Assembly (NCBI RefSeq): GCF_950066645.1
Contig: NZ_CATMFB010000020.1
Coordinates: 1-57,668, forward strand
Source of the DNA: an uncultured Thalassolituus sp.
Lineage (GTDB): Bacteria; Pseudomonadota; Gammaproteobacteria; Pseudomonadales; Oceanobacteraceae
Direction: 5' to 3'
DNA: 57,668 nt
Both the position numbers and the translations under genes were made by a program. This document shows, in pieces, positions 10,279 through 26,702 of the stretch. The notes beneath the pieces are model-generated. The model saw only the letters and a program-made list of their open reading frames with translations. It searched no databases and was not told the origin of the DNA. Each line of letters starts with the position of its first letter. Within the stretch, counting starts at the first letter, position 1.

Positions 10279-10310
10279 AAAAAATCCAGCGCAATGGCGC
10301 TGGATTTTTT
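10279..10310. terminator. Bidirectional intrinsic terminator
   Basis: A perfect stem (ATCCAGCGC / GCGCTGGAT around AATG) is flanked by A-run and T-run, so it can end transcription from both directions. It separates the plus-strand GDPD gene from the minus-strand DJ-1 gene, whose stop codon overlaps its edge. Confidence 0.9.
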
Positions 10311-10866: not shown

Positions 10867-11702
10867 AATGACAACTCCGGTTGAAGAATAACGGGGATAC
10901 CCGTCAGAATCACAAGACACCAAAGAATCTGAGCACGACTTACCTGCTCATTAAATATCAGAGCCCCTGCCAACAGAGCGCCAATAATACCGATACTGCG
11001 TTTGACGGTTTCGATCACGCCGGCATCCAGGTCTGCCAAAGCCTGCCACTGAAAGACAACCGCGCCTACAAAAATCAACAACGCAGGAATCACCCGGATC
11101 ACACGCCCCGTCAATCTCGCCTGCAGGCCAGTCGTGACAGCAAACAGCATGAGAATCACCGAACCGGCCAAAGTCTGCACCAGGCCATGAAAAAAAGGGC
11201 CACTGTGAGCTAACGCCTGCTTATCAAACACGATACCCAGCCCCCAGCCAAAACACACCAGCAGCATCAGAATAAATGGTTTTCCTCTGACGTGATGCAG
11301 CCCGCCCTGCGCTCCTATGATGGCGACAATCGTGACCAGCATCGCCAGCCATTGCAGAAGTGTCATCGACTCGTTAAGTATGACCCCTGCAGCCAGCGTA
11401 GAAATAACGGGCGTTAATGCAAGCACCGGTATGACCCTGGCAATATCACCAAGTTTCAGTGCGGTAATAAATCCAAGCGCAGCAATCGCTGCAAGCACAG
11501 CAGCGATAAAGGAAGGTACCCAGTAATCCGCAGGAGCAACCCCCTCTGAGCTGAAGAACCACGCAGTCGCATAAAGAGGAATGGCTCCCACATTGAATGC
11601 CAGAGTCAGAGCCAGCGGGCTTTCAGAGGATGCCAGTGTTTTCCGGGCCAGATCAAACAGCGTCCAGCACAGGGCAGACGCAAACAGAAATATAAGAGCC
11701 AT
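10863..11702 (-). CDS. EamA/DMT-superfamily transporter
   Basis: This 279-residue protein is almost entirely hydrophobic, with about ten membrane helices in two EamA halves (IFLFASALCWTLFDLARKT opens the first; PFILMLLVCFGWGLGIVFDK opens the second). DMT-family members mostly export small metabolites, but the substrate cannot be told here. The gene lies 14 bp after the ABC permease gene and overlaps the DJ-1 gene by ATGA, so it belongs to the same minus-strand transcript as selD and mnmH. That context hints at, but does not show, a link to selenium or to redox-active metabolites. Confidence 0.85.
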   Translation of the reverse strand: MALIFLFASALCWTLFDLARKTLASSESPLALTLAFNVGAIPLYATAWFFSSEGVAPADYWVPSFIAAVLAAIAALGFITALKLGDIARVIPVLALTPVISTLAAGVILNESMTLLQWLAMLVTIVAIIGAQGGLHHVRGKPFILMLLVCFGWGLGIVFDKQALAHSGPFFHGLVQTLAGSVILMLFAVTTGLQARLTGRVIRVIPALLIFVGAVVFQWQALADLDAGVIETVKRSIGIIGALLAGALIFNEQVSRAQILWCLVILTGIPVILQPELSL

Positions 11703-11716
11703 AGGGTCAGCCTACC

Positions 11717-13204
11717 TTACATAAGCGGTGTGCGCAGCCCCGACCTTCTGCGTAGCCGACGGGAGAGGCTGTCGATGATGATATTCAGCACCGCCGCCAT
11801 CACAATCAGAAAGAAGGCTTTATCAAAGCGGATTTCTTCAAACGCCGAATCGACATAGAAGCCCAGCGTTGCGATACCGAGCACGCCCATCATGGCGCTT
11901 TCGCGCATGATCACTTCCCAGCGGTAAAACAGCAGCGCCAGAAATGCTGGATAACGTTGCGGAAGATCCTGATAGAAGAATCGCATCGCACCTGTTGGTG
12001 AATCCGGACGCTGAACCCTAGCGGCATCTTCGCTGTTGTTGGCCAACAGGAAGGCAATCAGACCGCCATTGTGAATACCCAGCGCCAGAATCGCCGGCAA
12101 GGCCGACGGACCGAAAATCAACATAAATACATAGGCCAGCATCAGCTCAGGCACCGACCGCAGTACCAGCAGCTTAAAGCGCCCCATCGGTCGGAAGCCG
12201 CCCACCAGCCAGCGACTCGCAAACGGGTAATACATAAGCGCCAGCAGCCCGCTCAATACCAGCGCTGCCTGCGTCACGGCCAATGTCTGCCACAACGCGG
12301 GCCAGACGTCTGACATAAAAACATTGCCGTACCACTGCCCTGTGGCGATTAAATCACCCCGCTGCAGAGCCTTTGGCCATAAATCCTCAGTGATAAATTG
12401 CCAGAAAAAGCTGGCATTTACCGGTGGCATTTCTGGTAACACCCAGATCGCAGCGGCAATAAATAACGGAATCAACTTAGGTCGCAGCCACAAGCGCACA
12501 CTGCCAATCAGCAACAGAAACACCCAGAGCACAGCCGCGGCTTCGCTGTACTGACCCTGTTTGAACGCGGTTTCCAGATGAAAACCTAGCGTGGGCAAGC
12601 CGATAAAGCCGAGGATTGCGCTGGAGCGCAAGGCGCACTCAAAGCGATAACGCACGTACGAAATAAGTTCTGGCCAGGCCTTGGGAATCAACCCATACAC
12701 ATAACGGCTGATACGCGGTGCATTACCAAACGTCTGTACGGTTTGTGGTGATTGCTGATGCAGAATATCCGCAAAAACTTTGGTAAAAATTCCAGTAAAA
12801 GGGATCAGGATCGCCAGTAACCCGGTCGTCGCACTTAAGCCCCAGACCTGCATAAACAGCAGCCCCCAGAAGACTTCGTGCACAGAACGGATGGATGCCG
12901 CAAAGACCCGCACGATGCGCCAATGAAACCACATCGCCAGAAATAACCCTAAAACAGCTGAGCCCGCCACAGCCAACAAAGCAAAGGCGACTGTGTGACC
13001 AAGGGCTAACGCAAGCTCGGGAATGTCCGGCCAATACGGAGTAATTAATCCCAGACCAATACGGCCCAGCTCCTGCCAGGGGTCTGGCCGGTAGAAATGA
13101 ATATCTGCAATAAACAGCGAAATAATAGCGACAACGATAAAGCCGCCGCTTAAACGGGCTAAGCGAGAAGCTGTTGAAACTTCACTGGCCAGTTCAGCGC
13201 GCAT
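11717..13204 (-). CDS. PhnE-type ABC transporter permease, duplicated (selenium oxyanion import candidate)
   Basis: This 495-residue inner-membrane permease contains two BPD_transp_1 units in one chain; the second half repeats the EAA-type loop (ESAMMGVLGIATLGFYVDSAF, compare RSSAILGFIGLPTLGFHLETAF). The phosphonate family often has such duplicated PhnE. I start at ATG 13204 (MRAELASEV), which overlaps the 3' end of the ATPase gene; the open frame further up to 13375 lies inside that gene. With the adjoining ATPase and binding protein it forms a complete importer next to mnmH and selD, a context associated with putative selenate/selenite uptake. Confidence 0.87.
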   Translation of the reverse strand: MRAELASEVSTASRLARLSGGFIVVAIISLFIADIHFYRPDPWQELGRIGLGLITPYWPDIPELALALGHTVAFALLAVAGSAVLGLFLAMWFHWRIVRVFAASIRSVHEVFWGLLFMQVWGLSATTGLLAILIPFTGIFTKVFADILHQQSPQTVQTFGNAPRISRYVYGLIPKAWPELISYVRYRFECALRSSAILGFIGLPTLGFHLETAFKQGQYSEAAAVLWVFLLLIGSVRLWLRPKLIPLFIAAAIWVLPEMPPVNASFFWQFITEDLWPKALQRGDLIATGQWYGNVFMSDVWPALWQTLAVTQAALVLSGLLALMYYPFASRWLVGGFRPMGRFKLLVLRSVPELMLAYVFMLIFGPSALPAILALGIHNGGLIAFLLANNSEDAARVQRPDSPTGAMRFFYQDLPQRYPAFLALLFYRWEVIMRESAMMGVLGIATLGFYVDSAFEEIRFDKAFFLIVMAAVLNIIIDSLSRRLRRRSGLRTPLM

Positions 13205-17046: not shown

Positions 17047-17300
17047 GTCATTGCCGCGAACGCGGTAATCCAGCACACACCTTCTTGTCATCGCCGCGAA
17101 CGCGGTAATCAAACGCCCACCTTGTCATTACCGCGAACGCGGTAATCCGGCGCACACCTCGCCATTGCCGCGAACGCGGTAATCCAGCGCACACCTTGTC
17201 AATGCCGCGAACGCGGTAATCCAGCACACACCTTGTCATTGCCGCGAACGCGGTAATCCAGCGCACACCTTGTCATTGCCGCGAACGCGGTAATCCAGCG
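17047..17300. repeat. 37-bp tandem repeat cluster with CGCGAACGCG palindromes (about 7 copies)
   Basis: Copies begin at 17047, 17087, 17124, 17161, 17198, 17235 and 17272; spacing is 40 bp, then 37 bp five times, and the last copy is partial. Each holds ATTGCCGCGAACGCGGTAAT, a near palindrome, followed by a CCAGCGCACACCTTGT-like linker. Linkers are almost identical between copies, so this is a simple tandem array and not a CRISPR. The core belongs to a widespread proteobacterial dispersed palindrome type (CCCGCGAACGCGGG-like). A fragment of the same core (ATTGCCGCG) lies just left at 17031. The stretch 16955-17316 holds no convincing gene besides this. Confidence 0.9.
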
Positions 17301-17316
17301 TCCTGTATATCAACAA

Positions 17317-17706
17317 TCACCAGCTCCGGTTCTGTACTTCTACGCTCAGATTACACAGATGAATCTCGAACCATAGTCGGAACAAACCAGTATCAGCGTC
17401 ACTCTCTGTCGAGTAGTTGTTCACCTGAAAGAGACACTCGGTTGCATCTTCAAGCTCCGCTCGGAAGATCCCAAGTGCCGCAACGATAGATTCGGGCGAG
17501 ACTTTCTTAAGCACCTCGCCATTCACTACAGATTTCGCACCAACCCTGTATATAAGAGGAGTTCTTGATTTTTCTACAGGCGAATACTCCGACGAATACA
17601 CCCTGACCTCTTCATCCTCGGTACTGGCCAGTGAACGATATTCAGAGAACACACCATCTCGTAAAACCTGCTCAATCATTGCTACCGATACATCAGACAC
17701 TTTCAT
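17317..17706 (-). CDS. Hypothetical protein, toxin-immunity neighbourhood
   Basis: This is a 129-residue acidic soluble protein with no signal peptide and no motif I recognise. It overlaps the 3' end of the Imm11-like gene by 14 bp, which argues for translation from the same mRNA as the toxin and immunity genes. Small acidic proteins in such positions are often extra immunity proteins, but that is only an inference. The downstream side runs directly into the 37-bp tandem repeats. Confidence 0.6.
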   Translation of the reverse strand: MKVSDVSVAMIEQVLRDGVFSEYRSLASTEDEEVRVYSSEYSPVEKSRTPLIYRVGAKSVVNGEVLKKVSPESIVAALGIFRAELEDATECLFQVNNYSTESDADTGLFRLWFEIHLCNLSVEVQNRSW

Positions 17707-18292
17707 TAAAAACTCCGTTTACATTTAAAAAATTAAGACCCGTCAGCCCTCCATCCTCGCACAAACGCTTGAATCCATCAGTAGCAAAACTATGAATTAA
17801 TTTCTCTTCCTTCATTTTAAAAATGTCAACGTCACTTAAAAGGTCTTTACAGACCTTCACTCCGGACACGCCCAGGTGAACACCAGAATCTATAACGCTC
17901 ACTGCGCTGCTGCTATCTACCGAATCACTGTTTAGTACCTGCAAAGTATTAAACATGTAATATTTATCACCACCAACCATCACAGGTAAAAACTCACCAG
18001 CATCACGTATATTTTCGAAAAGCAACTCATAAGCCAGTTCATTGATCACAAGATTCCCCAGAGCCCAAATTGAAATATCCGGGATTTTTTCTAAGTCACC
18101 GGTAAACCCTTCCCCCCTATAAAACTGCCCCACAGGTTCAACCCACTCTGACAATCGTGGCTTAGCGCGAAACCTCTGACTATACCCTGGCATCTTTCCA
18201 AGCAAATCATCTATATCAAAATCAAAAGAATAGAAATTCTCAAAGTCAGCTTCTAGTTTATAGATCATTATTAAATATTCTTTTTCAACCAA
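17693..18292 (-). CDS. Imm11/DUF1629-like immunity protein
   Basis: The 199-residue sequence follows the DUF1629 (immunity protein 11) pattern as I recall it: an internal PDISIWALGNLVINELAYELL (the ligand-like iPDi...viNe core), GEFLPVMVGGDKYYMFN, a conserved Asp-Ser run, and a C-terminal DGFKRLCEDGGLTGLNFLNV. Proteins of this family neutralise polymorphic nuclease toxins. The gene follows the AHH nuclease gene, overlapping its 3' end by 22 bp, as expected for a toxin-immunity pair. AT content is visibly higher than in the flanking core genes, consistent with transfer. Confidence 0.75.
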   Translation of the reverse strand: MVEKEYLIMIYKLEADFENFYSFDFDIDDLLGKMPGYSQRFRAKPRLSEWVEPVGQFYRGEGFTGDLEKIPDISIWALGNLVINELAYELLFENIRDAGEFLPVMVGGDKYYMFNTLQVLNSDSVDSSSAVSVIDSGVHLGVSGVKVCKDLLSDVDIFKMKEEKLIHSFATDGFKRLCEDGGLTGLNFLNVNGVFNESV

Positions 18293-18897
18293 TCATAGTA
18301 TTCAGCCTCATCAATCTCTTGCTGAAGCTTAATCTCATCTTTAATATTGCCGTGCAATAGTTGAGTACGGACAGTATTCAGAAAAGCCCTGACTTGAGCA
18401 TCATCCATCAATGCACCTATAGCATGTTCAAGCCAGCGGTAATATCGCTGCCTATGTATTCTGTTGTGACCAATTGCATCAGGGTAAATAGTTGGCCGCG
18501 CATCCAACTTGGTTTTAGGCATCCAGGTACCGTTATCAGGATCATCAATTCTGATCGAAAAGTCATCTTCCGAAATCAACAATCGCACTGCCACAGCCTC
18601 TCGATGCGTTGCCGATACGATGTGGTGAGCCTCCCACCTGGGACCGGGCCGGGAAAAACCAGTTACCCTCAGAAACTTCCCTAGCCTCTCCGACGAATGT
18701 CGCTCCCTGAATAGCTCCGCAGTGGTCATCTGAAACCCACCCCTCCGGTACTCTTCAAGTTTCGAGGCAAGACGGGAACTGTTCATCCTTGCGAACTTTG
18801 ACTCCACCTTCTTGAAGACCCTATAACTATTGTCCTCATGACTCTTCGATTTAGCGTCGTCCATCGTATCTCGCAATACTTCCTTTATAGCACTCAT
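18271..18897 (-). CDS. AHH-type nuclease toxin (HNH/ENDO VII fold), stand-alone
   Basis: About 208 residues from ATG 18897 (MSAIKEVLRD), which I prefer to the open frame up to 18963 because a GGGAT ribosome-site-like stretch precedes it and the upstream residues look like untranslated AT-rich DNA. The C-terminal half has the AHH signature: WEAHHIVSATHREA with paired His, then a WMPKTK segment and the distal HNRIHRQRYYRW with two further His and Tyr. AHH domains act as DNase or RNase tips of polymorphic toxins. No delivery domain (VgrG, PAAR, RHS) is attached, so it may be a detached cargo toxin or an orphan tip. It is followed by an Imm11-like gene. Confidence 0.75.
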   Translation of the reverse strand: MSAIKEVLRDTMDDAKSKSHEDNSYRVFKKVESKFARMNSSRLASKLEEYRRGGFQMTTAELFRERHSSERLGKFLRVTGFSRPGPRWEAHHIVSATHREAVAVRLLISEDDFSIRIDDPDNGTWMPKTKLDARPTIYPDAIGHNRIHRQRYYRWLEHAIGALMDDAQVRAFLNTVRTQLLHGNIKDEIKLQQEIDEAEYYDWLKKNI

Positions 18898-19189
18898 TGT
18901 CTCTATCCCTTGAAAACGAAGAAACCATATACACTCAAACATATAGAATAGTATTACAATCACGTCGATATAAGAACCCTTATCATAGCGACACGGCCAT
19001 ATATTATTGCCTCACCATTGAAAGATAGTAAGATAAAACAGTCACTTCGAAACGACCTACAGAAATTAATACAATTGATATATGCTACACAACATATCAA
19101 CGTATTCCTCAGGAATTCGTTTTCAGTAGCGGTTTTTTTCGATAGACTACACAACCGGTTTATTATAAATAAATCAGGGTGGCTTCGGT

Positions 19190-20445
19190 ATTTCAGTTGC
19201 AGGTTTATTGGGATAGGCTTTGCAACATCGGTATTGACCGCATCGACCGTCACGACGGTACGTTTCAGTTGCAGGTTTATTGGGATAGGCTTTGCAACAA
19301 CGTCGAGGTGCACGATGCGCTTATGCGCTACCGTTTCAGTTGCAGGTTTATTGGGATAGGCTTTGCAACTCGGTCAGGATCAGCAGCTCGTCGAGGCTGT
19401 AAGTTTCAGTTGCAGGTTTATTGGGATAGGCTTTGCAACCCAACCACGCGCGGAAGAAACTCCAGACGTTGATCGTGTTTCAGTTGCAGGTTTATTGGGA
19501 TAGGCTTTGCAACTTGAGTTTGGCGGCGGCGATGGTGGCTTTTAATGTTTCAGTTGCAGGTTTATTGGGATAGGCTTTGCAACAGCCGTGCCCACAGTGA
19601 TTACCGGGCGCACATAGGTTTCAGTTGCGGGTTTATTGGGATAGGCTTTGCAACCAGGTCGTAATATAAACACATACCAACGAGACAGGTTTCAGTTGCA
19701 GGTTTATTGGGATAGGCTTTGCAACTAGGGCGGGTGAATGAAAGGCTCAGCAGAAATGTTGTTTCAGTTGCAGGTTTATTGGGATAGGCTTTGCAACCGC
19801 GCGTGATCATGGTCATGCATGCCACAGGGAGGGTTTCAGTTGCAGGTTTATTGGGATAGGCTTTGCAACCCCATAAGAATAACCTCAGAAGTGGTCTATC
19901 AAACCGTTTCAGTTGCAGGTTTATTGGGATAGGCTTTGCAACTACGATCAGGCAGCCCCATATAATCCCGCATCCAGTTTCAGTTGCAGGTTTATTGGGA
20001 TAGGCTTTGCAACACCAGAAAGCCGGCATAGTCAGACATTCCCTTGTGTTTCAGTTGCAAGTTTATTGGGATAGGCTTTGCAACAGACGCAAAAGGAGCG
20101 CGTAACGCCGCTTCGACGCAGTTTCAGTTGCAGGTTTATTGGGATAGGCTTTGCAACCCATGCAGCAGCAGGCGGCAACGCAGAGTCAGCAGGGTTTCAG
20201 GTGCAGGTTTATTGGGATAGGCTTTGCAACCGGCACTGTGCTTACGGAAGAAAATAACATCAGTAAGTTTCAGTTGCAGGTTTATTGGGATAGGCTTTGC
20301 AACCCGTGCAGGCCGCTGAATCAGAATTGGATGGCACGTTTCAGTTGCAGGTTTATTGGGATAGGCTTTGCAACGGTCGAGAATTTTCTCGATCATCGTC
20401 TGGACGTCGTTTCAGTTGCAGGTTTATTGGGATAGGCTTTGCAAC
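19190..20445 (-). CRISPR. Type II-B CRISPR array: 18 repeats of 37 bp, 17 spacers of 33-37 bp
   Basis: On the plus strand each repeat begins GTTTCAGTTGC and ends GATAGGCTTTGCAAC. Repeats start at 19190, 19262, 19333, 19403, 19477, 19547, 19618, 19689, 19761, 19833, 19906, 19977, 20048, 20121, 20194, 20267, 20338 and 20409. Variants: position 1 G to A in the 19190 copy, 12 A to G in 19618, 13 G to A in 20048, 8 T to G in 20194; the rest are identical. The GTTTCAGTTGC start resembles the Francisella II-B repeat, in which the crRNA strand ends ACTGAAAC. By that analogy the array is transcribed on the minus strand, like cas9, with the leader at the 20446 side and the oldest repeat at 19190, where the terminal base is already degenerate. 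Confidence 0.98.
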
Positions 20446-20492: not shown

Positions 20493-20592
20493 TGCCGGAT
20501 TGTTCGCAAAGGGTGCATTTGCCTCAAAAGGGTTGCTTTTTGCGAAAAATCGGGGATACTGGTCTGACCTATCCCAATAGGCCTGATTGAAG
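20475..20592 (-). ncRNA. Candidate tracrRNA
   Basis: Between the cas4 remnant and the array, the minus strand carries an anti-repeat: TATTGGGATAGG (20579-20568) is a perfect 12-nt complement of the crRNA repeat core, preceded after a 2x2 mismatch by CAGG (20585-20582), giving a 16-bp duplex with an internal loop. More partial pairing (CTTCAAT) lies further 5'. This is the same part of the repeat that pairs in the Francisella tracrRNA, and the same genomic place (between cas4 and array). Downstream are TTCGCAAA with its complement TTTGCGAA, and a GCATTG/CAATGC hairpin (20479-20495) that could end the RNA, though no T-run follows. Ends are approximate and no clear own promoter is seen. Confidence 0.72.
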
Positions 20593-20613
20593 TCGCCCAC
20601 GGGCGAGCTGAAA

Positions 20614-21414
20614 TCATCTAAAATCATGACTGACTCCGGCACCTGCTTCGGCATCCGGGGTTTTTCTTTTTCTGAGCCACTCTAATCGTCCCCCTGCGCA
20701 AAAGTTCAGATATTCACACTGACCACACTGTTCTGCTGACGCCGGAAAGTCTGGCATTGAGGCACCATTCAGTAATGAGCTAACCCTTGTTACCGTGGAT
20801 TCAACTTGCCGGCGAAGCGACGCTGACAGTTGTACTTCAAACGTTTTCCCTTTATCTCCATACAAAATAAATACACCCGCTATCGGTTTATTGAATTGCT
20901 GTTCCGCCGCGATCGCATAAGCAGCCACTTGGAAGATATGTCCTTTTACGGGTTTAGGCTCGGATATTTTAAACTCAATCAGATATAACGATGTCGCCGT
21001 TTCAGGCATCATGTCAGCAATACCGTGACAACCAAGTTTTTGAGAGCAAACATAAACGTCGCTTAGAACCCTGGCATCCTCCGCGATACCAAAACGAGAC
21101 AGGTTGCGGCGACGTGACAACATGGCCTGGCGCTGATACTGCCGGCGCCGGACATTGGCAATCGCATGTTGATGCCTGCCTGTCACTGCGGCCACTGCCA
21201 GACCTTTCCAGTCAAGGAAGAAAAGTCTTATTCCCCTGGCTGCGCAAGCAGTCACCAGGTTACTGGAAAAGCTGACGCCGTCACGAGCGATAGCAACACT
21301 TCACAGGCGAGATAACGGCGTTTCGAGAATTATGCTGGCATCATCCCTGACAACCATCCGCTCTCCAGTTACACCGACAAACTGACCATAATCAGCAATC
21401 GTCAGATGTCGCAT
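20614..21414 (-). pseudogene. Collapsed adaptation module: cas1 N-terminus fused in frame to cas4 C-terminus
   Basis: Translation from ATG 21414 gives a Cas1-like N-terminus (MRHLTIADYGQFVGVTGERM, then ETPLSRL), an in-frame TGA at 21303-21301, then more Cas1 in the same frame (SVAIARDGVSFSSNLVTACAARGIRLFFLDW, up to VTGRHQHAIANVRRRQ). At about 21105-21150 the frame changes identity to Cas4: LGCHGIADMM, LIEFKIS (E-x-K), HIFQVAAYA and CGQCEYLNFC, the nuclease motifs II-QhxxY and the C-terminal iron-sulfur Cys cluster (numbered from GTG 21255: D81, E94, K96, Q109, C177, C180, C186). Missing are the Cas1 catalytic C-terminal domain, all of cas2, the Cas4 N-terminal Cys and its first nuclease motif. 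Type II-B loci normally run cas9-cas1-cas2-cas4, so one deletion of roughly 1.5 kb explains this. The ATG overlaps the cas9 stop by 13 bp. A 213-residue fragment from GTG 21255 could still be made but should be inactive in adaptation. Confidence 0.87.
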
Positions 21415-24400
21415 GGCTCGGTCTCGTTAACTGCTTCGCGCTCTGCCAGGAGTGCCTTGTCGTAATACTGATTAATCACAACAGGACTACTTTCTCTGAT
21501 GTACCAATAGTTAACGACATCCCCGACCTTCGAAATAAACAAATTCGATTTCGGTTTTCCTAGTACGTCAATGCCATGTGCCGACTGGAATTTAGCAGCA
21601 TCCACTTTGACTCTTGAGGGAATTTCGAAAGGCGAATGTAGTTTTATACCACTCTCGGTTAACCATGCCTTAAAATCAGATAGAGTCTGACTGACTGAGA
21701 CATAGCGCCGATCTTTAGTACCAGGAGCCACTGAGACTGACAACACACGCTCATCCGTTATGTCTACGCATTTCCAATCATCGAAGTATACTTGCTGCTC
21801 AGGAACAGGCTGGTAACGTTCACCAACCCCAACGACCGAAGAATCACGCAGCGCAGGGATAGCCACTGGTTGCTTCCAATTTACACCCTTGTCATTTACC
21901 GTAAACCCGCTAGATCCCGTATCTTTGATACTCGTCAGTTGCCAGATCGTTGAACCATCAGGCGCTATTCTTTTAATTCGATAGCCGCCGTCAGGGCTAT
22001 CGACGATAGGTAACGAATATACCCTTCGCGTTTTACTGTGTGGGCGGGACGATCCTTCACCAAAGTATTTTTCACCAATTTGTTGCCAGTTAATGCCTAC
22101 CGCTTTTTCCCCAATGCGTGTCTCTATGTCCGGGATAAGGAATAGTCTTTTCCATTGCTCAATCGCCGGATGAGTGACCTTGCCCTTTAACTTACCCAGG
22201 CCTTTAACGTCAACATCAACCTTCACGTAAATATCTTTAGCCTTTAGCACTTCCTCTGGTTTTTTCAGTGTTTTCTTCTGTACATCAATCAGACGCGAAC
22301 TGATATCCTTTTTCGCGGTGCAATACCTGAGAGCATCAAGAATATCCGCCTGATGCAGATCGACCTCTGAATGCGGCGCTTTGGCCACCATTTCGAAGTG
22401 CTTGAACGCTTTTTCTTTACTAATATCTAGCTGTACAGGGCGAGGGCTTGCCAGGGCGGTATCGACATTTAAATTTTTAGTGGCGAATGGTGCCAGTAAT
22501 TCAAGTAGCCCACGAGTATCCTTACCTTGCCATTGCACCGAATTGCTTCCCAATGAGAAGCCGGATTCAATTCCTTTCTCTGAAATCCAGGTCGTCAGAA
22601 ATGACTCTGCATAAATTCCTTCTTTAAATATTGGCCGAGTACTTAGTTCTGACTTGCGATATAGAGGTAGGCGTTTAACCCAATTCACATCAACGTCAAC
22701 AGGTAACGCCGTTGCAAGCCACTCGGTATCCTCCATGAGTCCCGCGCCTTGAGCGAGCGTTTCGTGCATGCCTTCAGCGGCTGCAACTGAGAATGCACAA
22801 TAGGCATCGATGGCGTGAGATCCTACACCCTGGCGCTCTCCTTTGGTTGTCTCAGGCTTTGTCACTGCAAGCCCGGTGCGAACGAACGATGTTTGCTGAG
22901 CATCTGCTTTACACAGGTTAAAGACGATCGTATTACCCGTTTCAGACAGCCAGGATTTCAACTGGCTTTTCAATACGCTGATCAGTTTTCTGGCCAGCCA
23001 TGCCTGTGTGCCATTCACTCGCGCGCTCTGTTGAGTTGCCAGGCGTCTGAATACCTTCTCAAATGCCTTTGAATCACGTTCCAGGAATAAGGCATGGCGG
23101 ACATCCCTTTGCTGATCACCTTCTAGCTCTGAGAAGAGGAAGTCCTTCTTAATAGACGCCACAGACGCTTCGATAATCCGGGTTATCTCTGCCGAATCTG
23201 ACGTCCCATAGACGGCCTTGAGGTAATTGGGTGCCAAGTCAGAAATGCCGTAACGTTGGTCTTTCTTTTCCTGATTGCCACGGCGGCTGGCGTAAATAAG
23301 ATTGGCTTCGCTATTGAAGATTGTCCCTGATGCATCACGACTGTACGAGCGTGGAATTATGTGATCTAGCTCAGCATCTTTATCCAGAATTGTTCCCTTA
23401 TAAGGGCACAGGCCACTCCCGCCCTGTCTGATGCGTTCATTCTTTTCTTGCCATTTTTCCAGTTGCTTCTCACCCAGCGATAGCAGCTTTTTTCGCTTCG
23501 ATCCATCTTTTTTTACATCTGCAAGGCCAATACTGAAAGTAAAGCGGTTTTCTTCTACCACCACTGGAATGCTTATTTCAGAGTCTCTGACACCGGACTC
23601 TTTTATCTGCCCCGATTTCAGCGTCGCTATTTCATAAGCCTGACGTTCGAGCAAGCGTCTTAACACTCCGTCGAATGGCCGAGAACTGTCTGCTGGCAAG
23701 CGCGAACAACGTGCGGCTTCCTTATCGTCCACCGGTATCATTGTCATACGCCATGCAAGCTCCATGTGTGCAGCAGCACTGACCTTTGAGAATCCGTTCC
23801 GGTCTGTCTCTATCAGGGTGTACAACTGAGCAAGTGAAAAGGTATTACTGAATCTTTGTTTCTGCGTTTCGGTCGCAGAAATTGAACCAGAAATCACATC
23901 TGCTGCTTTCTCTACTTTAACCAGAAGCTGCCAAATTTCTTTATCCAGACCTTTAAATTTCTTCTCTGCACCTGCTTCGACCGACGCTCGATACCGTACA
24001 GACTGGATATACATATTGAAGAGGTTGCCATTCTGTTTTCTCAGGTCTTCGGCAGCTTTGCAGATACTCTTTACCGTTGATGGGCCATGAACTTTCTTCG
24101 TCCATACGTCTGACAGAAAGGTGGTCAGTTCTTCAGCGCTCATTTCAACGCCAAGAATATTCCCTACTAATCGATTCAGAATCTTTCGCTTTGAGGGAGG
24201 GTTAATATCCGCTTTTTCAAGCAGTGATGCCGATTCCTGCTCCCAGATGCCACTTTTTGCGCGTTCCACTTCCTGGTAATACTTCTGAGTGAAGTCCAGA
24301 AACTTTTCTGTATGTTGATCTCCCAGATCCTGCTTCAGGTTCCAGCGGAATTTTTCAAGTTTTTCTGACTTGAAGTTCTTTGATATCGCACGGAGTGCGT

Positions 24401-25649
24401 AGGTATCATGGATCCTGCTGCGATCAAGAAGACGCTGAAGAAAATAGCTGTCTGCATATAAAGACGTATCAGTCAGGCGCTGCTTATTGGTTTTCAAACG
24501 TGAACGGCGGTCAGTGAACTCAAGAACAGGCGCGATTCCCTCTGCCAGCTCCGGATTACGTTTACGGAGATTATTAACCCATACACGCCACTGTGAGCCA
24601 TATTGCTCATTCAGTGACTGGGGGTTAAGCCATAAGGTCTGATCTTTTGGAGGTCGACGGTTATTCTGATTTTCATAGGGTGGAATCGTCAGTTCTGCAT
24701 CAATCGTCATCAACGCCGTGAGAATATCTTCTGAAGGATGAATCACTTTTAATGCATTGTTGCGATTAACTCGCGTTTCTTCGTCCACATGCCAGTTCTG
24801 CAGCCAACGAACATATACCGACTTGAAGCGTTCGCCATCATAGTAATCGGCACTCTTCATCGCGGTATCGTTAAAGTACCATCTTAGCGCTCGCAACTGC
24901 AGGTTGCTGATGTTGCCAATAAGATTCTTGAGGGCGGAAGCCCCGAGCTTAGCCCGCAGCTCTGCTAATCGGGAATCCTTCAAAATCTCTTTACCTACGG
25001 CTTCAAGGTATTTTCGACGATGCTGGTGCCCGAAGTCGATACTGTTAAGCAACTCTGTTACTGATTCCCGAAGAATACCGTAGGCTTTCAGAATATCTGC
25101 TTGTTCGTCTTCTGCGTCTGTAAATAACTGCTTCTTTGCTTCGCGATTATTAAGATTAAACTTCTCATCAGCCGCCAAATCACGAAGTTTGGGAATGTCT
25201 TCCAGTAGTTCTTCTAATTGCTCAGATATAGGACTGCTACTATCGAAAAATTCTGGGAACTCATTGGCAATCCAGGAAGGAGGAACAGTCTCAAGAGGTT
25301 GGCGATCAATATCCGTTTCTACTCTGTTGTACCCCCTACGATTCAGCAAGCCATTCAAGGCCTCAAGTTCTGCATCATTCAGCTTGTAAGACAGCCCTTG
25401 AGTAAAGATCACTTTCAGTAAACGTTTCGCCAGCTTTCTACGTTTGTTTGAACGTATGCGGTGCCGGGTAGCAGTCCGCGCCGCTTGCGACCAGGTCATT
25501 TTGCCGCCCTCTTCTGGCATAACCAGCGTTGTCAGCTTGCCATGATGCTGAGCGAGGCTCTCTCCATACGGATATTGCGCCATATACAGACCGGTATAAA
25601 GACCACCGAGGTCAATCGCGATTGGAGAGATGATTTTAGAGTCAGTCAT
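21402..25649 (-). CDS. cas9: CRISPR-associated endonuclease Cas9, type II-B (Csx12 subfamily)
   Basis: This RNA-guided DNA endonuclease has 1415 residues, within the range of II-B Cas9 (Legionella and Wolinella forms are similar; Francisella's is longer). Visible parts: RuvC-I IAIDLGGLYTG with D13; Arg-rich bridge helix about 55-80; a long alpha-helical recognition lobe (about 90-640); RuvC-II IPVVVEEN with E699; HNH at 761-795 with D762, H763, N783 and N792; RuvC-III GSHAIDAY with H945 and D948; and a C-terminal PAM-interacting region from about 1120. Every catalytic residue of both nuclease domains is present and the frame is unbroken, so the effector looks functional although the adaptation genes behind it are destroyed. 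ATG 25649 has AAAAGGA before it. A WYL regulator gene precedes it by 93 bp. Confidence 0.97.
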   Translation of the reverse strand: MTDSKIISPIAIDLGGLYTGLYMAQYPYGESLAQHHGKLTTLVMPEEGGKMTWSQAARTATRHRIRSNKRRKLAKRLLKVIFTQGLSYKLNDAELEALNGLLNRRGYNRVETDIDRQPLETVPPSWIANEFPEFFDSSSPISEQLEELLEDIPKLRDLAADEKFNLNNREAKKQLFTDAEDEQADILKAYGILRESVTELLNSIDFGHQHRRKYLEAVGKEILKDSRLAELRAKLGASALKNLIGNISNLQLRALRWYFNDTAMKSADYYDGERFKSVYVRWLQNWHVDEETRVNRNNALKVIHPSEDILTALMTIDAELTIPPYENQNNRRPPKDQTLWLNPQSLNEQYGSQWRVWVNNLRKRNPELAEGIAPVLEFTDRRSRLKTNKQRLTDTSLYADSYFLQRLLDRSRIHDTYALRAISKNFKSEKLEKFRWNLKQDLGDQHTEKFLDFTQKYYQEVERAKSGIWEQESASLLEKADINPPSKRKILNRLVGNILGVEMSAEELTTFLSDVWTKKVHGPSTVKSICKAAEDLRKQNGNLFNMYIQSVRYRASVEAGAEKKFKGLDKEIWQLLVKVEKAADVISGSISATETQKQRFSNTFSLAQLYTLIETDRNGFSKVSAAAHMELAWRMTMIPVDDKEAARCSRLPADSSRPFDGVLRRLLERQAYEIATLKSGQIKESGVRDSEISIPVVVEENRFTFSIGLADVKKDGSKRKKLLSLGEKQLEKWQEKNERIRQGGSGLCPYKGTILDKDAELDHIIPRSYSRDASGTIFNSEANLIYASRRGNQEKKDQRYGISDLAPNYLKAVYGTSDSAEITRIIEASVASIKKDFLFSELEGDQQRDVRHALFLERDSKAFEKVFRRLATQQSARVNGTQAWLARKLISVLKSQLKSWLSETGNTIVFNLCKADAQQTSFVRTGLAVTKPETTKGERQGVGSHAIDAYCAFSVAAAEGMHETLAQGAGLMEDTEWLATALPVDVDVNWVKRLPLYRKSELSTRPIFKEGIYAESFLTTWISEKGIESGFSLGSNSVQWQGKDTRGLLELLAPFATKNLNVDTALASPRPVQLDISKEKAFKHFEMVAKAPHSEVDLHQADILDALRYCTAKKDISSRLIDVQKKTLKKPEEVLKAKDIYVKVDVDVKGLGKLKGKVTHPAIEQWKRLFLIPDIETRIGEKAVGINWQQIGEKYFGEGSSRPHSKTRRVYSLPIVDSPDGGYRIKRIAPDGSTIWQLTSIKDTGSSGFTVNDKGVNWKQPVAIPALRDSSVVGVGERYQPVPEQQVYFDDWKCVDITDERVLSVSVAPGTKDRRYVSVSQTLSDFKAWLTESGIKLHSPFEIPSRVKVDAAKFQSAHGIDVLGKPKSNLFISKVGDVVNYWYIRESSPVVINQYYDKALLAEREAVNETEPCDI

Positions 25650-25742: not shown

Positions 25743-26606
25743 TCAACGCCAGTAAGGTTCAACTGCCTCAGCCGACTCCGGCGTTAACATAACTTGCTGA
25801 GCTTCGCTTTTATCGCGTAAACGATCCAACCCCAGATGGCGCATCACATAAATCACGTTGGCTGCCCGTACGGAGTAACTTCGGGTATAGCGCCCTTGTT
25901 GGTCTTGGGTCATGCAGAAGTCGAATGCGAGCGCCGCTTTTTTGTTGTCCTTGAGGCGTATGTCAGGTTCGATGGTTACGTCGACGAAGGTATTCCATTT
26001 GTGGTCTTGCTGGGCTGTTTTGTCCGCTGCGCCTTCGTCGTTGTAGACCTCTTTAATGCGGGAGAGTACGTAGTCGCGATACTCCTGATTCTTTTCGCAC
26101 CAGGCACGGGCATGCCAGCGCATGCCGTTGTGAACAAGGTTGTGTGGGCTGATGATGCGGTCTTCGTAGTCGGTGCTAATTACCGACAGGTACGATATAT
26201 CGAGTCTGCGCTGCTGACGAATGGCACTGAGTACGTGCCGGACAATCTCTGGCTCAGGGTGTCGTCCAAACTGCCGCATGGGAAACATGTCCGACGACTG
26301 CAGGCATGTGGAGTTTTCCGGCATGTCCATGCCCTGAAACCCCATCAGGTATTGTTCAAGGCTACCGTTGGAATATTGGAGGGTAAATTGTCGCGATGGC
26401 TCATAACCTTTGGTGCTGGCGTTGTAGGTGAGGTTGCTGGGGCTGACGTGGTGGTATTTTCTGATCAGGTTGCTGGCGAGATCTCGCCCGATGCCGAATT
26501 CGTGTATCAGGTGGGTAGCGTTAATTTGTCCTTCCCACCGAGCGCGCAGCTCTATGAACCGGAGTATGAGCCGGTGTTGATATGACAGGTGTCTGGTGTC
26601 GTCCAT
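25743..26606 (-). CDS. WYL-domain transcriptional regulator (BrxR/CapW-like)
   Basis: About 287 residues from ATG 26606 (MDDTRHLSYQHR), which follows AGGGAG; the frame extends 25 codons further up but those residues look unconserved. It has an N-terminal winged helix-turn-helix (QHRLILRFIELRARWEGQINATHLIHEFGIGR in outline), a WYL domain around residues 130-215 (YLSVISTDYEDRIISPHNLV and RWHARAWCE, with the Arg/Trp/His ligand-binding pattern) and a C-terminal dimerisation region. This architecture matches BrxR and CapW, ligand-responsive repressors found at the head of phage-defence operons. It sits first in the cas9 transcript direction, 93 bp before cas9, so it likely controls cas9; such pairing with a type II-B system is unusual in my knowledge. 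Confidence 0.85.
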   Translation of the reverse strand: MDDTRHLSYQHRLILRFIELRARWEGQINATHLIHEFGIGRDLASNLIRKYHHVSPSNLTYNASTKGYEPSRQFTLQYSNGSLEQYLMGFQGMDMPENSTCLQSSDMFPMRQFGRHPEPEIVRHVLSAIRQQRRLDISYLSVISTDYEDRIISPHNLVHNGMRWHARAWCEKNQEYRDYVLSRIKEVYNDEGAADKTAQQDHKWNTFVDVTIEPDIRLKDNKKAALAFDFCMTQDQQGRYTRSYSVRAANVIYVMRHLGLDRLRDKSEAQQVMLTPESAEAVEPYWR

Positions 26607-26702
26607 TTGGGCTCCCTGCGCTCTGATAGTGTTTGAGTATATCGACGTATCAGGTAGGTTGCATGTGTCGTATGGCGACATCGTCGGAGAAGCGTTAGTG
26701 GA

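Follow-up and report, generated by a model that had tools for sequence, protein, structure and literature searches.

The window analysed here is the whole 57,668-nucleotide stretch of DNA from an uncultured Thalassolituus sp. (contig NZ_CATMFB010000020.1). Its type II-B CRISPR-Cas locus includes a cas9 gene, a CRISPR array and a candidate tracrRNA gene, and a single disrupted frame lies between cas9 and the array in place of cas1, cas2 and cas4 (Table 1). This raises the question of whether such a locus can still act against invading DNA and whether it can still acquire spacers. The reading favoured here, at a probability of about 0.8, is that of an interference-only type II-B locus that arose by a deletion of ~1.1 kb and in which the disrupted frame would be a pseudogene.

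Table 1. Features of the CRISPR-Cas locus and their positions in the window.
Feature	Position	Strand	Details
Probable degenerate repeat, cas-distal array end	19119..19155	+	Partial match 19131-19155; extent read from flank
CRISPR array	19190..20445	+	18 repeats of 37 nt, 17 spacers of 33-37 nt
Spacer 3	19370..19402	+	Identical to Mu-like prophage gp36 gene (G031) and one IMG/VR contig, CGG beside both
Spacer 7	19655..19688	+	Two IMG/VR contigs, each 31/34 with CGG; one Vibrio phage, 28/34 with GGA
tracrRNA candidate, ends approximate	20566..20668	+	Anti-repeat 20568-20594, hairpins, terminator-like stem 20632-20662, T-rich tail
cas1'-'cas4 deletion remnant, whole frame with one internal stop	20614..21414	-	Profile searches
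Longest stop-free ORF spanning the junction	20614..21255	-	213 aa, GTG start at 21255
cas4 3' part	20617..21135	-	D, E-x-K, Q...Y, C-x-x-C...C kept; N-terminal Cys lost; tail abnormal past Cys186
cas1 5' part, second piece	21124..21300	-	Cas1 profile 40-97; junction with cas4 at low end, approximate
In-frame TGA (codon 38) within cas1 part	21301..21303	-	
cas1 5' end, codons 1-37	21304..21414	-	Cas1 profile 1-37; overlaps cas9 end
cas9 (Csx12, type II-B), intact by sequence	21402..25649	-	1415 aa; TIGR03031; conserved and catalytic positions kept
WYL-domain gene, putative link only	25743..26681	-	93 bp upstream of cas9, same strand

The cas1-cas4 remnant

The remnant frame starts with an ATG at 21414 and runs downstream of cas9, on the minus strand, to 20614. 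A type II Cas1 profile built here matched the piece before the in-frame TGA through positions 1-37 (E 3.9e-07) and the piece past it through positions 40-97 of 320 (E 2e-16), and a type II Cas4 profile, likewise built here, matched the later part of the remnant through positions 60-205 of 207 (E 2.2e-40). The two matches share four residues, and the switch from Cas1 to Cas4 lies at ~21124-21135. The remnant also matched positions 2-102 of 283 of Pfam Cas1 (E 2e-12) and positions 56-159 of 160 of Pfam Cas4 (E 5.9e-10). PADLOC assigned Cas1_II to 21106-21300 (E 4.6e-18), and within the 213-residue ORF it found Cas4_II (E 6.4e-40) and, at the ORF start, Cas1_II (E 2.7e-10). A single family spanning the whole ORF was ruled out by the Pfam, NCBIfam and PADLOC results at the curated cut-offs.

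The initial annotation had described a frame that starts as the N-terminus of Cas1 and finishes as the C-terminal part of Cas4, with a switch at 21105-21150 and without the Cas1 active-site domain, cas2 and the first part of Cas4. Two profile families matched in series, with coverage that stops and starts accordingly, bear out this description of a fusion, and the E-x-K, Q...Y and C-x-x-C...C motifs claimed for the Cas4 part were found on alignment with relatives. The frame had further been held to stay open. This is true of the 213-residue ORF, which crosses the junction, but not of the frame as read from the Cas1 start, which is closed by the TGA. As the TGA is codon 38, the 213-residue ORF begins within Cas1, at ~residue 54. 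Translation of the TGA as selenocysteine, for which a selD-like gene is present in the window, was rejected by inspection because none of the four Cas1s compared has Cys at this position, the residues there being R, S, A and K.

Absent from the remnant are the C-terminal two thirds of Cas1, cas2 and the N-terminus of Cas4. The active-site residues of Cas1 are located in its C-terminal domain, and all of them would be gone from the remnant. An intact cas4 is a hallmark of II-B among type II systems. As compared with the canonical II-B gene set, cas1 is cut to its N-terminal third (profile positions 1-97 of 320) and carries a stop, cas2 is absent from the locus and the genome alike, and cas4 (positions 60-205 of 207) has lost the N-terminal Cys and a C-terminal D-R. 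The missing DNA amounts to ~1.1 kb, as estimated from the coordinates of the relative L016 (on the same contig as L013). An internal deletion of this size would start inside cas1, remove all of cas2 and end within cas4, and would thereby take away the adaptation module and leave Cas9, the array and the tracrRNA candidate in place. As the surviving Cas4 half is free of stops and frameshifts as far as the last cysteine, the deletion would be recent relative to the divergence from known relatives.

The genome was also examined for replacement adaptation genes. The assembly (3.7 Mb, listed as 99.99% complete) is a draft of 30 contigs, in which the remnant is the single match to Pfam Cas1 and the sole match to Pfam Cas4. 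The Pfam Cas2 search of the 30 contigs found nothing, and a search of the assembly with the array found no second array with a similar repeat. Adaptation in trans was rejected on these grounds, in agreement with the earlier view that adaptation is dead at this locus. The same results bear on the possibility that the locus is truly intact and that the assembler skipped ~1.1 kb. While a draft in 30 contigs leaves room for such an error, the junction lies inside a 57.7-kb contig and within coding sequence, only one Cas1 and one Cas4 match and no Cas2 occur anywhere in the assembly, and skipped sequence would not account for the nearby stop, which is a lesion of its own. An assembly error is considered very improbable.

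The initial annotation had also suggested that a chimeric 213-residue protein might still be made. Nineteen Cas4 columns are shared by 21 or more of the 23 relatives, and 16 of these persist in the Cas4 half, among them D81, E94-x-K96, Q109, Y113 and three cysteines. The N-terminal Cys and the D-R past the last Cys, each present in all 23 relatives, are missing, and the 213-residue ORF therefore lacks one of the four conserved Cas4 cysteines. Nothing in the 23 relatives corresponds to the tail beyond Cys186, the final stretch of which overlaps with the tracrRNA candidate. In an AlphaFold2 model of the ORF (24 aligned sequences; mean pLDDT 74), confidence was high for the core at ~residues 51-160 (block means of 90 or more) and poor for the Cas1 piece, with block means of 35-60, and for the cysteine region, with 46-55. 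A search of the ORF against solved structures returned one meaningless match only.

A working Cas1'-'Cas4 protein, for example a trimmed PD-(D/E)XK nuclease that aids Cas9 or acts on DNA ends, would draw on the kept nuclease motif and other conserved columns, on the confident core, although the aligned Cas4 relatives could by themselves account for that confidence, and on an in-frame GTG at 21195 with a purine-rich stretch upstream. It would have to do so with its natural start cut off by the stop at codon 38, without residues that every relative keeps, with a tail that runs into the tracrRNA candidate and with a Cas1 piece and cysteine region that are not confidently modelled. The suggestion is thus weakened, and a functional chimera seems very improbable. 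Given the premature stop and the abnormal C-terminus, the remnant is best read as a pseudogene.

Cas9, the array and the spacer targets

The Cas9 scored 500.8 bits against TIGR03031 (cut-off 399.4), which assigns it to the Csx12/II-B subtype, and matched PADLOC Cas9b with an E of 2e-150. It was compared by a leave-one-out count with other full-length II-B Cas9s, 26 in total, namely those of the window, L006, L012, L014 and 22 loci between L015 and L038, a set that leaves out the Cas9s of L042 and later. The Cas9 of the window keeps 75 of the 76 near-invariant columns, and the other 25 keep 83-100% by the same count. Residues D13, E699, H763, H945 and D948, which we take to be the RuvC/HNH catalytic residues, are identical in all 26. 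The solved structures closest to it by sequence are 9ko9, 8umf and 9kor. These results are consistent with the claim made earlier that the locus retains an intact type II-B Cas9. The WYL-domain gene upstream has relatives (56-60% identity) in two genomes of the same genus (G028 and G031) and none among the ORFs of the fetched II-B loci, several of which hold <1 kb upstream of cas9.

The array is likewise in good order. Fourteen of its 18 repeats are identical to the consensus and the other four have one change each, and the placing of ~37-nt repeats downstream of cas4 is as in type II-B and matches the layout of the relatives that have an array in view. Because the degenerate repeat probably marks the cas-distal end, the younger end of the array is probably the one next to the cas genes. 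A separate set of tandem repeats, with a 37-base period, lies at 17047-17337 beside the selD-like gene and does not match the CRISPR repeat.

A putative anti-repeat is located between cas4 and the array, as expected for a type II-B tracrRNA. Its predicted duplex with the repeat (-35.3 kcal/mol) was the strongest among 9,380 stretches of 36 nt from the window outside the array, the second-best stretch (34765) being only about 2 kcal/mol weaker. The single-strand fold of the candidate is only modestly above shuffles (z -1.79), a sigma-70 promoter scan listed no site for it, and Rfam at gathering thresholds identified only a tRNA across the window. An anti-repeat-like stretch in the same interval was seen in relatives such as L015, L016, L017, L023, L031, L035 and L050, and none is listed for some others, e.g. 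L006 and L018. In L006, a 16-nt anti-repeat core was observed between cas9 and cas1 (10291-10306). The 18 near-identical repeats and the top-ranking anti-repeat fit the initial view that array and tracrRNA candidate are complete, as judged from the sequence.

All 17 spacers were contained in the array query that was run against phage and plasmid collections and against genomes of the family (44) and the order (390), with a limited number of candidates scored per genome. For IMG/VR, 7 of the 17 spacers were queried by their PAM-side ends; contigs were found for two, and the last 20-25 bases of the other five gave no match. Convincing targets were identified for 2 of the 17 spacers, spacers 3 and 7. 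The target of spacer 3 in G031, a genome of the same genus, is a 33/33 match in a prophage gene with the Pfam domain Phage_Mu_Gp36. For spacer 7, weak matches to ten Vibrio phage records were obtained (E 0.009 to 0.4), and the flank was read in one of these. On the 3' side, four of the five protospacer sites (two 33/33 and two 31/34) are flanked by CGG and the fifth, the diverged Vibrio phage site, by GGA. An NGG PAM on the 3' side of the protospacer is the requirement of Francisella Cas9, and the four CGG sites agree with it. Because the four CGG sites form two pairs that resemble related viruses, they count as about two independent observations.

No sign of self-targeting was obtained, as the best matches in the own genome outside the array cover 24 nt (92% identity) and 19 nt (100%), each with an E of 0.1. 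The only match of the array to the plasmid collection was one of 24 nt (E 0.3), the segment 19100-21500 of the window had no match to plasmids at E 1e-5, and Cas9 had none in the plasmid and phage collections.

Taken with the state of cas9, these targets suggest how the locus might operate. The tracrRNA and the crRNAs from the array would be transcribed, processed and loaded on Cas9, and Cas9 with these guides would still cleave matching phages, Mu-like ones included. Since the integrase part of Cas1 and Cas2 are gone, the locus would be unable to insert new spacers by itself. The Cas9 system thus probably still defends but no longer learns.

Related loci and known systems

A total of 48 other loci were gathered, 35 of which were assessable after removal of duplicates (L011 = L037, L013 = L016), of two loci with only an HNH-level match to the Cas9 profile (L056 and L057) and of nine cut by contig ends (L032, L039, L040, L043-L046, L052, L055). 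In 30 of the 35, the order is cas1-cas2-cas4 and each gene is one ORF that covers most of its profile. Four (L024, L041, L037, L051) have a broken cas1, due to an internal stop in L024 and L041 and to a frameshift in L037. In L051, from a Nitrospira MAG (VYFB01000136.1; 14392-14735), cas1 ends after ~58 residues, and neither cas2 nor cas4 was found at the locus. This locus resembles that of the window in its truncated cas1, its Cas9 in one ORF and its lack of a detectable cas2, but differs in that hardly any sequence separates cas1 from two CRISPR repeats; it represents a separate event, in a metagenome bin. Some of the lesions may be sequencing errors, as L024, L041 and L051 carry metagenome-derived titles. 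The four loci provide a small starting catalogue of II-B loci with a broken cas1. In L006, from a genome of the same family (G015; 11691-12185), cas4 continues without a gap into the first repeat, and its C-terminal cysteines are missing. A mirror case was noted in L050 and L054, in which Cas9 is divided among several ORFs although cas1, cas2 and cas4 are complete.

A match to the Cas9 of the window was found in 2 of the 44 family genomes, the own genome and G015, and the Pfam Csx12 model was found in one of 390 sampled genomes of the order, which is the own genome, and in 5 of 369 in the class sample, own included. Scans of genomes and viral contigs with the single Cas9 protein gave no relative, whereas an alignment query did find relatives.

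The Cas9 subtype, the order cas9-cas1..cas4-tracrRNA-array, the 37-nt repeats and the CGG beside the best protospacers all liken the locus to type II-B. Natural Cas4/Cas1 fusions (NCBIfam NF049935, cas4g_cas1g) also hold Cas1 and Cas4 parts in one frame. However, Cas4 comes first in NF049935 (full-length Cas4 of L013 aligns at 2-189 and Cas1 at 216-469), whereas in the window Cas1 comes first and both parts are truncated. Given the reversed order, the truncation, the internal stop and a score of 36 bits against a cut-off of 560, a natural fusion was rejected.

A parallel is the type II-C system of Campylobacter coli clade 3, which is reported to have Cas9 and repeats without cas1 or cas2 and without other cas genes elsewhere (PMC4607530). 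Cas9 and array are thus kept and cas1 and cas2 gone in both cases; the C. coli system is II-C and has no cas4, whereas the locus in the window is II-B with a visible cas1-cas4 scar. The authors of that study pointed out that spacers might also be exchanged between cells via recombination (PMC4607530), which speaks against the reading favoured here. For II-B, no cas1-cas4 deletion was found in the literature, a weak negative that covers open-licence papers only. The locus is regarded as a degenerate case of type II-B, and, since interference-only type II loci have already been described (PMC4607530), the view of how CRISPR works is unchanged.

The locus provides a clean natural case in which Cas9 immunity appears frozen at its last memories, with a visible deletion scar and an exact phage target in the same genus, and which allows one to ask how long type II systems persist once updating is lost. 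A more elaborate scenario is that the lineage has, under selection, given up learning in exchange for a fixed Cas9 immunity (or a Cas9-based form of regulation) that is passed on vertically, and that the scar may yield a trimmed nuclease core of Cas4 type, which starts inside what is left of cas1 and is expressed together with Cas9; this is considered improbable.

History at the genomic site

Genes matching 11.6-17.0 kb of the window, the selD-like gene and its neighbours, are kept in 8 of 9 genomes of the genus, own included. With the array as query, 12 of the 44 family genomes gave matches with an E of no more than 0.1. Strong matches were confined to the own genome, G030 and G031, and the remaining matches had E values of 0.003 to 0.09. 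In G085, which belongs to the order, a repeat-like match of 85% over 46 bases was put down to chance on inspection of its sequence.

The G030 match (L089:7295-7331, contig C2) is a lone repeat identical to the window consensus in 37 of 37 positions, in the same orientation and ~0.5 kb from the selD-like gene. The stretch that adjoins it has only about 76% DNA identity, the adjoining gene has no Pfam match, and an HsdR-like gene lies ~1.8 kb beyond. The Cas9 search gave no match in G030. Most simply, an ancestor or donor would have had this CRISPR locus at the site, and G030 would have lost all of it except one repeat.

G030 thus shows a possible end state, and the locus in the window could be moribund as a whole, with Cas9 and the array as unexpressed leftovers that have yet to decay. 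The stop and abnormal tail of the remnant and the failure of the promoter scan to list a site for the tracrRNA would fit this. Against it stand the conservation of Cas9, which equals that of other loci, the apparently intact array and tracrRNA candidate, and protospacers with matching PAMs; a moribund locus is accordingly considered unlikely, and the interference-only reading is preferred.

In G028, ~20 kb separate the relative of the WYL-domain gene from the selD-like gene, as against 8.7 kb in the window, with the relative orientation of the two genes unchanged, and the interval therefore has the look of a variable island. The window also contains an AHH-family nuclease gene and an Imm11-like gene (17693-18963), likely a toxin-immunity pair, in the interval from the selD-like gene to the array; relatives are found within the genus, of the Imm11-like gene in G027 and of both genes in G028.
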